64,000 nucleotides of DNA. Origin: Mucilaginibacter gotjawali. GTDB lineage: Bacteria; Bacteroidota; Bacteroidia; Sphingobacteriales; Sphingobacteriaceae. Below, one piece after another: positions 23,503-29,455 of the stretch (positions are counted from its first letter, which is position 1; each line of letters begins with the position of its first letter). Position numbers and translations under genes: made by a program. The stretch covers positions 2,294,001 through 2,358,000 of the forward strand of contig NZ_AP017313.1 of assembly GCF_002355435.1 (NCBI RefSeq). Direction: 5' to 3'. Under the pieces are notes generated by a model. The model worked only from the letters and a program-made list of their open reading frames with translations, searched no databases and was not told where the DNA came from.

Positions 23503-23588
23503 ATATTCATCGGTAGTTAAATATCACAAAGCCCGGACGCCGAAAAGGGAACAAAAGAGTAGGCATACCTAAAATCTTTTACATCATG
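23503..23588 (+). repeat. Leader copy 1 (decayed duplicate of the operon leader)
   Basis: This stretch is homologous to 23717-23802, exactly 214 bases downstream. Shared blocks are GGTAGT, CCCGGA, GAAAAGGG, AGAGTA, AAATCTTT and ACATCATG, in the same order. In this copy the promoter box is degraded (TATATTCA), and the ATG opens only a 12-codon frame. Confidence 0.75.
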
Positions 23589-23624: not shown

Positions 23625-23689
23625 TGGCTTTGCCTTGGCAAACCAAATTTTAAATACCGTAAAAACACCTTTTTAAATACCGTGAAATT

Positions 23690-23709
23690 GCCCGTTACCG
23701 GGCGGTTTT
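23690..23709 (+). terminator. Hairpin before the second leader (possible attenuator)
   Basis: GCCCG-TTAC-CGGGC followed by GGTTTT. The stem is short. It lies between leader copy 1 and the promoter box of copy 2. Confidence 0.45.
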
Positions 23710-23716
23710 GGGTGTT

Positions 23717-23802
23717 TAGTTTTGAGGTAGTGAAATAGTAATAAATACCCGGAAGCTGAAAAGGGATTTTAGAGTAAGCGGACTTAAATCTTTCACATCA
23801 TG
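23717..23802 (+). promoter_or_regulatory. Promoter and leader (copy 2) of the lysis-like operon
   Basis: TAGTTTTG (23717-23724) matches the -7 consensus. The following ~70 bases are the functional copy of the duplicated leader, ending at the ATG of the 514-residue membrane protein. Confidence 0.45.
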
Positions 23803-25344
23803 TTCAATAGTGTTATCTTGGATGTCGCGATTGGAGTTGTGTTTATTTTTCTGACTTACAGTTTGTTGGCTACATCCATACAGGAAGCGATTGCAACTGG
23901 CCTTTCCCTTAGGGCACGTAATCTCAAGGACGGTATCGTTAACGGAATGCTCAGTGATACGCCAAACGATCCGAGGTGGTTAAGCTTTTTTAAAGGTATA
24001 TGGTCAAAAGGTGTTTGGTCGTTTCTTTTAAGTCTTTTTTATATTTTTGTTCCAAGACCCAAACCCAAATGCAAAAATCTGGGGCATCATTTTTATGAGC
24101 ATCCAATCATAAAAAATTATGGTTCCAGTCGTTTCTACCCGCATCCCTCGTATTTGCCTACTTCCAATTTTTCAAGCATCTTGGTGGACGTTTTAAAAAA
24201 GGATTTTACATTTAAAATTAACGACATCGCCAATAAAAAGGCGATGATGCAGCCAAACCTTACTCAAAATCAAATAAAACAGAATCTTCAAAACAGCCCT
24301 GATGTGGTTAAACTAAAGGAGTTGTTGTCTTATTACGACAATATAATATACCGACAAAGTAAAGGGGTCGATAAAGAAAGTCAAGCAAACGGGGGAGTAA
24401 TCATTGATAAAGACACATTGCGGATACTTCAAATGCATTTGCGTAATAGTTTATATAATATTGATGATTTTAATAAAACCCTCGAAAGTTGGTTTGATGA
24501 TACTATGAACCGTATTTCCGGTTGGTACAAAAGGCAGGTTCAGGTCATTCTTTTTTTGATAGGATTTTCTTTCGCGGTTATTTTTAATGTTGATATTATT
24601 CAAATCGAGGGGAAACTGTCTACGGATAAAGATGCCCGCGATCAACTAGTTCAGCTTGCTGTCAAGCAAGCCGCCACAGATAAAGCTAACCCGCCCGGCG
24701 CGCCTGCAAATGCAACCCAAAATACTAATCATCTTGAGGAAGCTAAAAAATTGATAAACGATAATGCAATAAAAGCCAATACGCTAATGGGCCTTGGCTG
24801 GGGCGACTATGGCAGAAAGCAGGATAGTGCAAAAATTGTTTCTGATTACTTTAAAAGCAATAGTGATTCATCACATATACTATTTAATCAAATTGCGGAT
24901 ATTAAAAAATTAGCCTTAAGCCAGATAACGCCATTAAATACCATAGTTAAACAAACAAAAAACCTGAGCGCACTTGAGGCAAAAAAAATAAACGAAACAA
25001 ATTCAGCTAAAGCTCAGAAAATTCAACAGCAGGCAATGGCAGAGGCCAATAAGATCAGAAAAAAAATAGTTGATAGCGAATTCGGTGCTGGTGATAAGAT
25101 ATCTTTTGTTTGGCACAAGTTGAGAAATTGGGAAAAAGTTCTTGGCATGTTGATCACTGCTTTTGCGGTTTCACTTGGTGCTCCGTTTTGGTTCGATTCG
25201 CTTAGCAAACTAATTTCTTTACGTGGCACCGGCGCAAAGGAAGGCAGTAGCGGCAATAAACCGGCAAACAATGCTTCCGCTGCTCAAACCCAACCGGTAA
25301 CAGTAAATGTTGCACAACAACCAGGTAAGGAGGCGGTAGGATAA
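23800..25344 (+). CDS. Membrane protein with GAPFWFD motif, function unknown
   Basis: A 514-residue protein, first gene of a four-gene operon. An N-terminal membrane helix (6-27) is followed by the conserved-looking SIQEAIATGLSLRARNLKDGI (26-46). Further hydrophobic segments lie at 71-85, 247-267 and 447-463, the last followed by LGAPFWFDSLSKLISLRG (459-476). Between helices 3 and 4 lies a polar, partly coiled domain (270-430), and the C-terminus (480-514) is Ala/Pro/Gln-rich. I recognise this as a recurrent bacterial membrane family but cannot name it. As the membrane component beside muralytic and proteolytic enzymes it could act as a pore or anchor; that is inference. Confidence 0.7.
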   Translation: MFNSVILDVAIGVVFIFLTYSLLATSIQEAIATGLSLRARNLKDGIVNGMLSDTPNDPRWLSFFKGIWSKGVWSFLLSLFYIFVPRPKPKCKNLGHHFYEHPIIKNYGSSRFYPHPSYLPTSNFSSILVDVLKKDFTFKINDIANKKAMMQPNLTQNQIKQNLQNSPDVVKLKELLSYYDNIIYRQSKGVDKESQANGGVIIDKDTLRILQMHLRNSLYNIDDFNKTLESWFDDTMNRISGWYKRQVQVILFLIGFSFAVIFNVDIIQIEGKLSTDKDARDQLVQLAVKQAATDKANPPGAPANATQNTNHLEEAKKLINDNAIKANTLMGLGWGDYGRKQDSAKIVSDYFKSNSDSSHILFNQIADIKKLALSQITPLNTIVKQTKNLSALEAKKINETNSAKAQKIQQQAMAEANKIRKKIVDSEFGAGDKISFVWHKLRNWEKVLGMLITAFAVSLGAPFWFDSLSKLISLRGTGAKEGSSGNKPANNASAAQTQPVTVNVAQQPGKEAVG

Positions 25345-25345
25345 A

Positions 25346-26170
25346 ATGGCTATATATGTTGTAACCGTGGATAAACTTAACAGACGCAGCGTGATACCGT
25401 CAAAAATGCCCGACACGAATAATATTGTTGGAGTAGTAAATAAGGGGTATAAATTTAATGGTCATGAAGTAGACCCGGACGAAATACCCAACTACACCTT
25501 GGGAAAATGGTATCGGGGAACCGATGGGAGCTTTTATTGGGGCGGTGGCGTTTCACTTGTTCAGGCGGATGTGAAAAAAACATTATTGGACTTAAACCAA
25601 ATCGTTATAGTAACCGGGGCAACCCTGGCAATCGCCCAATTGTTTCTTCAGTATATTAACCATGCCTGTGCCAGGTATCAAATTAATACGCCGGTAAGGC
25701 AATTGTGTTTTTTGATTCAGCTTGGCCACGACAGCGACGGGCTTTTTTATACCGAGGAGGTAGCGACCGGACATGGATACGAGGAAGATAAACATTTGGG
25801 CAATACACATAAACACGACGGGGTAACCTACAAAGGGCGTGGGCTGCTGAAAATTGTTGGCCGGCGCGCGTATGAAGAACTTGAAAATGAATTTGACAAA
25901 AACTTTGTTTTAAAGCCAACCATTTTAGGAGGCAAAAACGCCACTTTGTGCGAATCGGAACAACTAAAATATGCTGCATTAAGCGCAGGCTGGTTGTGGG
26001 ATAAAAAAGAACTAAATAAACTAGCTGATAAAATCGATATAAAGAAACCCATCGATGAAGAAACAAATCTTAAACACTTTGAAGCAATAACCTATAAGAT
26101 CGCTGGCAGCTATCAGGGCCTTTCCGATCAAATAAAAAAGTTTAACGCTGGCTTGCAATATTTTAAATAA
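25346..26170 (+). CDS. GH19-like muralytic enzyme (endolysin type) with SH3b-like domain
   Basis: A 274-residue protein with no signal peptide. Residues 3-65 form an SH3b-like module (VVTVDKLNRRS...VGVVNKGYKF). Residues ~108-274 resemble glycoside hydrolase 19 / phage-type lysozymes: FLIQLGHDSDGLFYTEEV (123-139), YEEDKHLGNT (145-154), DGVTYKGRGLLKIVGRRAY (158-176). This fold cleaves chitin or peptidoglycan. The catalytic acid of GH19, normally Glu in an HE(S/T) motif, is Asp here (H128-D129-S130), which may lower or change activity; E137/E138 remain. The start is one base after the stop of the membrane protein, and a protease sharing its SH3b module follows 2 bases downstream. Absence of a signal means it needs a holin-like or lytic release route. 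Confidence 0.82.
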   Translation: MAIYVVTVDKLNRRSVIPSKMPDTNNIVGVVNKGYKFNGHEVDPDEIPNYTLGKWYRGTDGSFYWGGGVSLVQADVKKTLLDLNQIVIVTGATLAIAQLFLQYINHACARYQINTPVRQLCFLIQLGHDSDGLFYTEEVATGHGYEEDKHLGNTHKHDGVTYKGRGLLKIVGRRAYEELENEFDKNFVLKPTILGGKNATLCESEQLKYAALSAGWLWDKKELNKLADKIDIKKPIDEETNLKHFEAITYKIAGSYQGLSDQIKKFNAGLQYFK

Positions 26171-26172
26171 CC

Positions 26173-27339
26173 ATGACACAATACATTGTAACCGCTGATT
26201 TATTAAACGTTAGGAGGGAAACCCCGCAAAGTCTTACTGATCCGAATGTTGTGGGGACAGTAAATAAGGGCCATGCTTTTGACGGAACTCCAGTTCCAGC
26301 CAATCAACTGACTAATCCTGATTTAGGGCCTTTTATTAAGGATAATATTAGCGGGAATGTTGTTTCGGGCGCCTTTGTGATGGCCGGAGATGAAAATGGT
26401 TCTTTAATCCCGACATCCCAAAGTGATATTGACACTTTCAACAACAATGCCAAATTTCCACCAACCTTAATTAATTGGAATAGTAGAGTTGTAAAACTTC
26501 CGGCTGAAATAAGAAATACCTTAGGTAGCGGGATTAGAGTTGCAGTTTTGGATACCGGGATCGAAAGGACGCATATAGACTTAGCTCAAAACTTAGTTGA
26601 TTCAGTAGATTTTACAGATGCGGAAGCCGGGGATTCAGATCAAGTGGGCCACGGAACCGAAATGGCGTCTTTAATAGCGGCAAGCGCATATTTTGCTGGC
26701 ATCAAAGGGATTACAGGCGTAGCTCCACAAGCGAAAATTTATTCGGCAAAAGTTATGTATGATGAAGGTGGTCCCGGCGACAATGACCCCAAAATATTTC
26801 TGAGTGTGGAAAATGGACTGAGTCATGTTTTACAAAAAAATGTTGACATAGTTAATATGTCAATCGGACGTCCTCCAGCATTCCCTTTTCCAGATGTCAA
26901 AAAGGGAATTACCAACATGATTTCTCAGAATACTACAACTGTTTTTTTCGCGGCCACAAAGGAAATTAGTCAAATTAATAGTGCATCCGATTTATTAGAT
27001 ATTTTTCCAGCTAATATTGAAAATGTTATTCCCGTTTGCACATTAACAAAAGAACTTGTCAATGAATATTGGGATCAACTGCCGATACCCTTGATAATAA
27101 TCCCTGTTTTTAAACCATGGGCCTGTGACATCCAAGTTAATCAATATTATTCTCAAAATTCCGGCAGTAGTATTTCTACTGCATTGATGGCCGGGATTAC
27201 TGCGCTCATCTTAAGTCACAATTCATCCGTCATTAGAACTAAACAAGGAATTATCGACGAGTTGAAAAAGTATACTTCGAACATAGATGAAGCCTTTAGT
27301 AATATCGGAAACGAAATTCACCTAATCTTAAAAAGTTAA
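26173..27339 (+). CDS. Subtilisin-like (S8) protease with SH3b-like N-terminus
   Basis: A 388-residue protein without signal peptide. Residues 4-40 (IVTADLLNVRRET...VVGTVNKGHAF) are an SH3b-like module clearly related to that of the gene just upstream. Residues 118-350 are a subtilase domain with Asp127 (VAVLDTGIERTHIDL), His160 (VGHGTEMASLIAA) and Ser333 (SGSSISTALMAG). The strand that normally ends in AAGN, supplying the oxyanion-hole Asn, reads FFAATKE (Asn position is K263), so catalysis may be weak or use another residue. The prodomain seen in secreted subtilisins is absent. It is translationally linked to the GH19-like gene (2 bases apart). Likely target: envelope or partner proteins; unproven. 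Confidence 0.85.
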   Translation: MTQYIVTADLLNVRRETPQSLTDPNVVGTVNKGHAFDGTPVPANQLTNPDLGPFIKDNISGNVVSGAFVMAGDENGSLIPTSQSDIDTFNNNAKFPPTLINWNSRVVKLPAEIRNTLGSGIRVAVLDTGIERTHIDLAQNLVDSVDFTDAEAGDSDQVGHGTEMASLIAASAYFAGIKGITGVAPQAKIYSAKVMYDEGGPGDNDPKIFLSVENGLSHVLQKNVDIVNMSIGRPPAFPFPDVKKGITNMISQNTTTVFFAATKEISQINSASDLLDIFPANIENVIPVCTLTKELVNEYWDQLPIPLIIIPVFKPWACDIQVNQYYSQNSGSSISTALMAGITALILSHNSSVIRTKQGIIDELKKYTSNIDEAFSNIGNEIHLILKS

Positions 27340-27349
27340 ATAATGTGCC

Positions 27350-29353
27350 ATGAAAAAATTTAGTTTGATTGTATTCTCTCTTTTTCACCTGAGTATTTGT
27401 TATTCTCAGGTCGCGTATTACGATGCGAATAGTTTATCGAAGTTACTCGATACTAACAAACACTTTAGCAAAACGGCAGTTAAAGTGTCAATGCTGTATA
27501 CCATACTGCACAAAAGCTATGGTGTTGATAGTGCAAGCTTCATTAAACTTCAAAACGATCCGAAATATAATCCGTTTCTGTATCCGTTTTTTGAGTCAGC
27601 AAACGGAAAAACTTTAGCAGAAACGACGCCAATACTGTCAAATAATTGGGTGTCAACTACAGAGAATGCAATTGGAAATCTGCCAGTAACAAATATCGCC
27701 AGTGGGCTAGCTGGTTTTTTAGTAAAAAGAGCCAAGGAAGAGTTGTTTATCTCAATAATCCAAAAACTTCAAGATCCCACAAAATTTCCTGAGTTTCAGA
27801 TCCTTTTTCCCAAAACTATGGCTTTAATGAAAAATTTTAAAGCCTGGGAATATTCCAATGTATTAAACACTTTAAAAGCAGCCTTTGAAAAGGATTTACA
27901 ACAATTGCTGATCGATATCCCCCAATTAACTACGTTACCTAACTTAGATACTACAGGTATGCCCGCAGTTAGTAAAAAGAAAATAGATAGTCTTTATTCT
28001 AAAGCCGTAATCAAAAGGGTTAATGCAATACGGAAATTTCTTAATACGGCTGATGCACGCGTTTTAATCTCTGCCATGCGGATAGGCGGAGGAATTATTA
28101 ACGGGGAAAAAATTCCGGATATCATTCATGTTGTTTCAGGTGACAAGTTTCTAGCAAATATACCTGGCGAAAAACCGAATGTCACAAATGCAATCAAATT
28201 TCTCGATATCCTCAGTTATAGTTTGCGAAGCCAGACAAAAGGACAAAATTATATTCCATTCAAGGAATTTGAAGCTTTTATTGCTGATAATGTGTCCGCT
28301 AAGCTTTATCTGGGTTTGATCTATCAGCAAATGATCAATGAAAATATACAATTTACAAACATTAATATCAGTAAATTAGAAGGAATTCTTAATTCAAATG
28401 GGCTTAGAACATATTTGGACAGTTTGGTACATAATGGAGAAGATTTAAATACAGCAATGTCTGGCTTGACGGCTGCAAAAAAGAAAGGTGAAAAGGATTT
28501 ATCCACCTACTGGTCGGCAATATTTCAATCTGCAAATGGATTGATCCAGTCATTATCCGATATTAAAGTAATAGACAATGACTTCGAGGTTCCGGCCAGG
28601 GTTGATTCAGTGTTTAGTTACAGTTCAAAAACATTGGAGGTTGCCCAGGATATTGCAAGCAATAACTATAGCGGTGCGATCGTTGGAATAGATGCTCTTA
28701 TACCAGCAACAGGTAAGGATAACGATTTTAAAAAGCTTTTTCTAAAATATGGATCTTTTGTGGCGAATTTGGTGGAGGCTAAGACTGCCGGTGATGCAGA
28801 AAATGCTATCGAGGCGGTTGCCTTGCCCGTTGGAAGTTATACAGTGAAACAAAATTCAACATGGAATATCTCCGTTAACGGATACGTCGGCTATGGGAAA
28901 GATGGTAACTACGCAAGCGGGATATATGCTCCCATCGGCTTTTCAGCGTCGACTTCAAACTTTTGGGGATTATGTAATTGCCAAGTGCCTTTAACACTTT
29001 TTGTTCCGATATTTGATGTCGGAAGTATTGCTCAGTATCAACTCAACAATCCAACCACAACCGGTACTTCAACAACCGGTACTCCAACTGGTACTTCCAC
29101 CACGGCATCTACCATTAACACCTCATCAAGCAACCAGCAAATTAAATTAGGGAGTCTTTTTGCCCCAGGTGCCGAATTGCTTTTTGAATACCCTAAATGG
29201 CCATTCGCTTTTGGAGCTGGTTATAGGAGAACGCCCACGCTATCTTATTCAAGCGGATCGACTTACACAACGGTAGGGGCAAGGTGGGAAGTGAATTTCA
29301 CGATTTTAATTGATATTCCAATTTTTACCTTGCTTAATAGAAGTAAAGATTGA
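27350..29353 (+). CDS. Exported protein, possible outer-membrane beta-barrel end
   Basis: A 667-residue protein, last of the operon and the only one with a Sec signal peptide (MKKFSLIVFSLFHLSICYSQ). The middle (about 100-480) looks mainly helical. The C-terminal ~190 residues are beta-rich with aromatic ends: NISVNGYVGYGKDGNY, YAPIGFSASTSNFWG, FAPGAELLFEYPKWPFAFGAGYRR-like strands, and VGARWEVNFTILIDIP. A Thr/Ser/Gly-rich linker interrupts it (about 564-598). This suggests a small barrel or surface domain in the outer membrane. I know no named family. In the context of a muralytic enzyme and a protease it may be the outer-membrane component of the same process. A terminator follows. Confidence 0.6.
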   Translation: MKKFSLIVFSLFHLSICYSQVAYYDANSLSKLLDTNKHFSKTAVKVSMLYTILHKSYGVDSASFIKLQNDPKYNPFLYPFFESANGKTLAETTPILSNNWVSTTENAIGNLPVTNIASGLAGFLVKRAKEELFISIIQKLQDPTKFPEFQILFPKTMALMKNFKAWEYSNVLNTLKAAFEKDLQQLLIDIPQLTTLPNLDTTGMPAVSKKKIDSLYSKAVIKRVNAIRKFLNTADARVLISAMRIGGGIINGEKIPDIIHVVSGDKFLANIPGEKPNVTNAIKFLDILSYSLRSQTKGQNYIPFKEFEAFIADNVSAKLYLGLIYQQMINENIQFTNINISKLEGILNSNGLRTYLDSLVHNGEDLNTAMSGLTAAKKKGEKDLSTYWSAIFQSANGLIQSLSDIKVIDNDFEVPARVDSVFSYSSKTLEVAQDIASNNYSGAIVGIDALIPATGKDNDFKKLFLKYGSFVANLVEAKTAGDAENAIEAVALPVGSYTVKQNSTWNISVNGYVGYGKDGNYASGIYAPIGFSASTSNFWGLCNCQVPLTLFVPIFDVGSIAQYQLNNPTTTGTSTTGTPTGTSTTASTINTSSSNQQIKLGSLFAPGAELLFEYPKWPFAFGAGYRRTPTLSYSSGSTYTTVGARWEVNFTILIDIPIFTLLNRSKD

Positions 29354-29418: not shown

Positions 29419-29455
29419 AAGCCTTGATCGCAAAACGGTCAAGGCTTCTTAATTT
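29419..29455 (+). terminator. Terminator of the lysis-like operon
   Basis: AAGCCTTGATCG pairs with CGGTCAAGGCTT (12 bases, one wobble), loop CAAAA, followed by CTTAATTTTT. Confidence 0.85.

Follow-up and report, generated by a model that had tools for sequence, protein, structure and literature searches.

A four-gene cassette of Mucilaginibacter gotjawali as a candidate envelope-breaching module

The window, i.e. the whole 64,000-nucleotide stretch analysed here, comes from the genome of Mucilaginibacter gotjawali (6.34 Mb in one contig; NZ_AP017313.1, positions 2,294,001 to 2,358,000) and contains, between its positions 23800 and 29353, four genes, hereafter A to D, encoded on the forward strand with intergenic gaps of 1, 2 and 10 bases. 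Gene A (23800-25344) codes for a three-helix inner-membrane protein of 514 amino acids with a predicted N-out/C-in topology. Gene B (25346-26170; 274 amino acids) combines an SH3b-like domain (about residues 1-70) with a GH19-like muralytic domain, and gene C (26173-27339; 388 amino acids) an SH3b-like domain with a subtilase. Gene D (27350-29353; 667 amino acids) encodes an exported protein composed of a helical part (about residues 20-490) and a predicted small C-terminal barrel (residues 503-665). A terminator-like hairpin with a 12-pair stem and a T-rich tail is located behind D on the same strand (29419-29447); it ties with one other for the longest stem among the 14 terminator-like sites of the region, where 9.7 are expected. 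Apart from A to D, no same-strand open reading frame (ORF) of at least 90 amino acids is present between 23800 and 31615. The initial annotation had described this locus as a four-gene operon for a multi-helix membrane protein, a signal-less GH19-like enzyme, a signal-less subtilase and an exported, possibly barrel-forming protein, and the data presented here agree with it on each of these points. The cassette points to a hitherto undescribed device by which the cell would breach or cross its own envelope.

Relatives of A number in the hundreds. A search of the GTDB species set confirmed at least 550 of 591 stretches, from which the best 80 loci were kept, a selection leaning to the close relatives of the query. 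The gene was found in 5 of 36 other genomes of the same genus, in none of 23 genomes from other families of the class and in 23 of 296 genomes of the phylum, the genome of the window included. A is patchy and not housekeeping. Homologs are carried on plasmids in Hymenobacter, Caballeronia, Rhizobium, Agrobacterium, Paracoccus, Vitreoscilla, Nostoc and Kovacikia (Nonomuraea gave a weak match), and an amidase gene directly follows A in Caballeronia and Hymenobacter.

Of 87 loci, 74 have a same-strand ORF that begins within 150 bases 3' of A (median gap, 3 bases). The Pfam families detected in these 74 downstream ORFs are Peptidase_S8 (23 ORFs), GH25 (7), GH46 (6), Amidase_2 (3) and C1 (2), together with single cases of Phage_lysozyme, patatin and YdjC, among the 25 of 54 families listed. 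Such partner families were absent from 79 control ORFs located more than 6 kb from A, among the 25 of 126 families listed. Most of the downstream ORFs (64 of 74) have no signal-like N-terminus.

The composition of the cassette was then established for 93 loci. A protease is present in 44 of them (33 S8, 8 trypsin-like and 4 C1, one cassette holding two), and D is present in 36, all of which contain a protease, either a subtilase or a trypsin-like enzyme and sometimes fused to A (Fisher's test, 2.3e-18). When every locus was checked, one extra D was detected outside the gap limit, in L057, directly behind a subtilase with an SH3b-like domain. A muralytic enzyme is encoded in 25 of the 93 cassettes and belongs to one of six families (8 GH25, 6 GH46, 5 amidase, 3 GH19, 3 GH24 and 1 M15, one cassette holding two). 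Muralytic enzyme, protease and D occur together in only eight cassettes, the window among them. The arrangement is beyond chance because it recurs in dozens of genomes. Concerning these counts, L102 is included in the 87 loci and not in the 93; L068, where the ORF finder recovered no complete A, is in neither; and L147, L149 and L150, which contain A and no recognised partner, enter the 97-gene leader count given below and not the 93. The rows L030, L032 and L033 are near-duplicates, as are L151 and L152.

In a phylogenetic tree of 91 A proteins (L084 and L098 were excluded), the minimum number of changes is 27 for the protease class, 24 for D and 10 for the muralytic trait. From 17 independent pairs differing in protease, taken on well-supported branches, the presence of D changes in agreement in 14.1 pairs on average, in the opposite direction in none and remains unchanged in 2.9 (p 1.2e-4). 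The same association is observed at the scale of whole genomes: among the other 295 phylum genomes, 22 have A (two of which, G178 and G246, rest on short matches), 11 have D and 6 have both, where 0.8 are expected (p 3e-5), and the two genes lie on one contig in all six cases. In the close relative L016, A and the GH19 enzyme are followed by an 82-residue ORF consisting of little beyond the SH3b-like domain, which would fit a joint loss of protease and D. A, protease and D constitute a linked and repeatedly co-changing core, to which the muralytic enzyme is an optional extra. The conserved co-occurrence that the initial annotation proposed to look for is found, homologs being linked and not scattered, with the roles reversed: the protease and the outer-membrane-like protein, regarded there as the unusual parts, belong to the core, and it is the lytic enzyme that is optional.

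Other gene arrangements were observed beside A. Four loci (L020, L053, L054 and L075) contain an ORF of about 154-163 amino acids that looks like a lipoprotein and an ORF of 108-114 amino acids with a hydrophobic C-terminal stretch, which recall an o-spanin and a holin; in L020 both are on the strand opposite to A. In L042 (11329-12743), A is followed by a 127-residue ORF with one hydrophobic stretch and the look of a coiled coil, a 187-residue ORF and a GH24 lysozyme, in a spanin-like layout. In L145 (8328-16379), L050 and L020, A is accompanied by a patatin and a large membrane protein (about 1340 amino acids), and in L083 by this large protein and no recognised patatin; the large protein has a weak Cache-like match, under the cut-off, in L145. 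Finally, in L024, L038, L050, L052, L083, L090 and L145, which contain neither protease nor D, A is followed by an ORF of 95-140 amino acids and another of 375-437 amino acids, the latter with a signal-like start and perhaps representing a second type of outer-membrane partner.

The hydropathy profile of A displays three hydrophobic stretches (residues 5-23, 249-267 and 447-465), and three such stretches are conserved in 62 of 71 aligned A proteins, the other nine having two. In the 51 of these 71 proteins that could be measured by script, the mean number of Lys and Arg residues around the first helix is none before and 4.1 after, and around the third helix 2.4 before and 3.9 after; the second helix is uninformative (3.2 vs 3.3). 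An N-out/C-in topology is favoured because of this distribution around helices 1 and 3. Fold prediction of the 514-residue protein, recommended at the outset, yielded an all-helical AlphaFold2 model (pLDDT 84.6, pTM 0.77); its alignments with PDB structures involve mostly the helices at residues 336-441, with Z below 8, and are uninformative. No Pfam family above the cut-off was detected for A and, with E limited to 1, no PHROG family was matched by A and no PDB sequence by its profile; with the limit at 0.001, no viral structure model matches either A or D. Unfused A proteins are about 290 to 580 amino acids long, with three helices and a cytoplasmic part predicted to be large. In five loci (L056, L063, L071, L073 and L079), A is fused to a C-terminal trypsin-like domain containing the His and GDSG motifs, and D comes next in four of them.

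B has no Pfam family above the cut-off and is similar to a PHROG endolysin family (1.7e-23) and to the endolysin PWe2 in the PDB (3.8e-16). C belongs to Peptidase_S8 (Pfam, 8.2e-27); its catalytic triad Asp127, His160 and Ser333 is invariant in all eight aligned rows, and its score with the NCBIfam mycosin model (93.7 bits) is far under the cut-off of 278.75. Neither enzyme has a signal-like N-terminus. They share the N-terminal SH3b-like domain, with 37% identity over 63 amino acids. Only 4 of 21 SH3b-like domains match Pfam SH3_5 (best 7.2e-5), and the corresponding profile found nothing below 0.5 among PDB sequences. The LNxR signature of this domain is absent from the five proteins in which A is fused to a protease. 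A simple reading is that the SH3b-like domain would dock the free enzymes to A and would be dispensable in the fusions.

A signal-like N-terminus is present in D, as in 31 of 32 D proteins, and no Pfam family was detected above the cut-off. Its profile has weak matches among PDB sequences (best 0.0051), mostly coiled-coil and designed proteins. Six loci with D and without A were inspected, and a hydrolase adjoins D in three of them: in the genome of the window it is a C39/C70-like peptidase, in G236 a caspase and in G192 a patatin (confirmed with Pfam, the patatin being just under the cut-off). The first of these loci holds a second D gene of the M. gotjawali genome (G000:C1:4241776-4243710; L139 8774-11011), located directly behind the peptidase.

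Two pseudoknot-like leader copies, 216 bases apart, lie upstream of A on the forward strand and resemble the DUF805b RNA (Rfam RF02914). The first (23530-23565; 33.1 bits, E 8.8e-8) contains a CCC/GGG stem and a second pairing GCC/GGC, and the ATG of a 12-codon ORF comes next; the second (23746-23780; 24.8 bits, E 5.8e-5) contains a GCT/AGC pairing and is found just before A. Both score under the RF02914 gathering cut-off of 35.6 bits and were matched in a permissive search; at the gathering threshold, Rfam gave no match in the window. From seven other loci searched, three (L034, L068 and L071) have a DUF805b RNA above the gathering cut-off before A. The leader consensus, with one substitution allowed, is located upstream of 7 of 97 A genes vs 5 of 1442 other ORFs from the same loci (p 2e-6). 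The motif is not specific to the cassette: an exact pattern of it occurs in at least 120 viral stretches and, in the 80 of these loci that were listed, there is mostly a start codon 16-27 bases further on. Between the two copies, on the forward strand, are a 12-pair hairpin detected in the hairpin scan (23683-23710) and two 17-nucleotide direct repeats, 23 nucleotides apart (23648-23687), a possible operator. Shortened to 16 bases, the repeat matches the genome exactly twice, each time at this site, and five more times with one mismatch, as often as its reversed control, so that an operator shared by a regulon is unsupported.

The four genes have a G+C content of 38-42%, vs 49% for the neighbouring DUF4403 and DUF6603 genes, which fits an acquired set. 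The region 31615-54442 encodes a DUF6603 protein of 3222 amino acids followed by a series of other large proteins, in which visual inspection revealed no evident signal starts; two of them carry kelch repeats. No mention of DUF6603 was found in the literature searched. A link between the cassette and this giant gene was considered and rejected: in the 295 other genomes, DUF6603 is present in 12 and A in 22, with one genome shared.

A phage origin of the cassette is likewise unsupported, as none of 50,697 phage records matches the A relatives of L088 and L123, which were used as queries in place of the window's A, and scans of IMG/VR recovered one distant contig. As to contractile injection systems, A is found in G284 and G265, two genomes very similar at this place, 223-233 bases before Pvc16-like and sheath genes on the same strand (in G284, both families were confirmed with Pfam, the C-terminal model being the one that matched the sheath). 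Three ORFs with a motif of the eCIS_core type (eCIS, extracellular contractile injection system) lie near A and an amidase in G006, and in G192, D and a patatin are upstream of eCIS genes. Only 1 of 84 loci scanned contains ORFs in which this motif is convincing. Among the 295 genomes, D co-occurs with eCIS_core in 6 (2.4 expected, p 0.016) and with the sheath in 5 (2.8 expected, p 0.15).

Our preferred reading, which we hold tentatively, is that the four genes form one accessory module breaching the cell's own envelope layer by layer, whose function would most likely be the release of cytoplasmic cargo by lysis of some cells. We prefer it because A is paired with wall enzymes of six families, because an outer-membrane-like partner accompanies it and because a few loci contain injection systems. 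The lysis or release function proposed by the initial annotation is thus retained in part; the wall enzymes and the injection-system loci agree with it, and the small holin and the spanin pair of the sets that it mentioned were not found among the ORFs of at least 90 amino acids of the window set. A would span the inner membrane and, with a cytoplasmic C-terminus, would hold the signal-less enzymes on that side, docked by the shared SH3b-like domain or by direct fusion. On a trigger, A would open the inner membrane, with or without cleavage by its protease. The muralytic enzyme would then cut the wall, and the protease paired with the outer-membrane-like D would weaken the outer layer. Leader RNAs of the DUF805b type may gate the expression of the module.

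Several observations weigh against this reading. About a third of the cassettes (33 of 93) contain no recognised protease or wall enzyme, a number that is an upper bound as NlpC-like, patatin and other partners had no profiles, and some ORFs downstream of A look non-lytic (three RidA, two DUF900 hydrolases and the YdjC). In B, the motif HDS (Asp129) replaces the motif HES, whose Glu we take to be the catalytic residue of GH19 endolysins; HES is kept in L016 and PWe2, and in a second conserved motif of B, Gln and Thr are replaced by Lys and Val, the L016 relative having the usual residues. In C, no oxyanion Asn was seen by eye in the aligned stretch that presumably corresponds to the oxyanion hole, some relatives departing likewise. 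The activity of both enzymes is uncertain because each departs at a catalytic residue, and the window copy may be weakened or functionally altered. The model of D, with its long helical part and small C-terminal barrel, is weak (pLDDT 69.9); the best barrel match of the C-terminus is the OprF domain (Z 5.1, rmsd 3.5, 96 aligned residues), an unrelated row scores higher (Z 6.2), and matches to OprF/OmpA barrels in general are weak and not above unrelated rows. No hydrolase was recognised by eye alone beside the D genes of G277, G283 and G344, which lack A. The co-occurrence of A with injection systems in the 295 genomes is weak, both for eCIS_core (8 vs 4.8 expected, p 0.10) and for the sheath (10 vs 5.5 expected, p 0.037). 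Moreover, the window's genome contains no match to PF04984 (sheath) or PF13699 (eCIS_core), families that were detected in this way in 74 and 64 of the 296 genomes, respectively, and membership of the window in an injection system is rejected. Finally, a cytoplasmic protease meets an outer-membrane partner only once the inner membrane opens.

Alternatively, proteases, wall enzymes, lipases and other hydrolases would be delivered outside intact cells, A being an inner-membrane platform that recognises SH3b-tagged cytoplasmic enzymes and passes them to D in the outer membrane. Such a non-lytic export is rather unlikely in our opinion. It would account for an SH3b-like N-terminus common to enzymes of different folds, for its signature being missing from the five fused proteases, for a range of partners resembling that of effectors and for the combination of signal-less downstream ORFs with a D that carries a signal-like start. 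It has to face the 57 of 93 cassettes without D, a predicted barrel of about eight strands offering no wide pore, the inability of A to export an enzyme to which it is fused and a gene set without an energy-coupling protein.

The exchange of the protease fold (subtilase or trypsin-like) while A and D are kept could also indicate a gasdermin-like suicide or anti-phage module, where the protease would sense infection or damage and would cleave A or free D, the cell then dying. The caspase and the C39/C70-like peptidase adjoining D alone, the patchy distribution, the G+C content low relative to the flanks and the few loci in which a patatin and a large membrane protein accompany A are in line with it. 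However, none of the PADLOC models matches A, B or D with an E-value of 1 or less; only C matches this anti-phage library, with the models subtilase (3.5e-14) and IetS (best 1.7e-12), over the protease part. No sensor gene is present in the window set and a device of this kind needs no wall-cutting enzymes; we consider this possibility distinctly unlikely. It is very unlikely that A serves envelope upkeep by anchoring intracellular quality-control proteases or wall enzymes at the inner membrane, D being of unrelated use, as A is too patchy and D too strictly linked with the protease for such a role, even if C finds intracellular serine proteases as its top two matches in the PDB and about a third of the A loci have no recognised enzyme.

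To our knowledge, the exit of large cytoplasmic particles and of signal-less enzymes from Bacteroidota is poorly explained. A membrane protein of no named family, travelling with a protease and an outer-membrane-like protein, would provide a testable exit route, and the DUF805b RNA gains a repeated target outside phage. More doubtful than the envelope-breaching module itself is the wider proposal that A, protease and D represent a novel type of trans-envelope machinery common across the Bacteroidota, with A as an inner-membrane platform, exchangeable cytoplasmic hydrolases docked on it by SH3b-like domains or fusion and a dedicated outer-membrane partner, acting alone or freeing injection particles and switched by DUF805b RNAs in several lineages. 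No description of the four-gene set was found in the literature searched, outside of which are most subscription journals and all preprints.

Among known systems, bacterial gasdermin operons also place a membrane-acting protein beside exchangeable proteases; in the present cassette, A is integral to the membrane and D is exported, neither with a Pfam family over the cut-off. The leader shares the sequence and the pairing of the DUF805b RNA and differs from it by scores under the cut-off and by its two copies in the window. Accessory genes of eCIS are similar in that a few genomes have A or D within an eCIS locus or next to one; they are unlike the cassette in view of the single locus of 84 with the motif ORFs and the lack of eCIS_core and sheath matches in the window's genome. 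Injection-system particles are said to leave cells by lysis (PMC8213781). CisA, from the injection system of Streptomyces, is a membrane protein needed for such a system, which acts on its own cell, and, according to PMC12237407, has a single membrane crossing and a periplasmic C-terminal domain, whereas the C-terminus of the three-helix A is predicted to be cytoplasmic. A further parallel is with type 10 secretion, described for Yersinia and Serratia, and with phage holin-endolysin-spanin cassettes. As described in PMC10847048, these share with the cassette a tight operon, a membrane protein, a signal-less muralytic enzyme and an outer-envelope component. The cassette is distinguished by its large three-helix A, its protease-D core, its optional muralytic enzyme and the absence of a spanin pair. 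Because the window set contains no small holin of phage type (A has 514 amino acids and no PHROG match) and no i-spanin/o-spanin pair among its ORFs of at least 90 amino acids between 23800 and 31615 (D has 667 amino acids), the best reading is that the cassette works in the manner of type 10 secretion or of a phage lysis cassette without being either.

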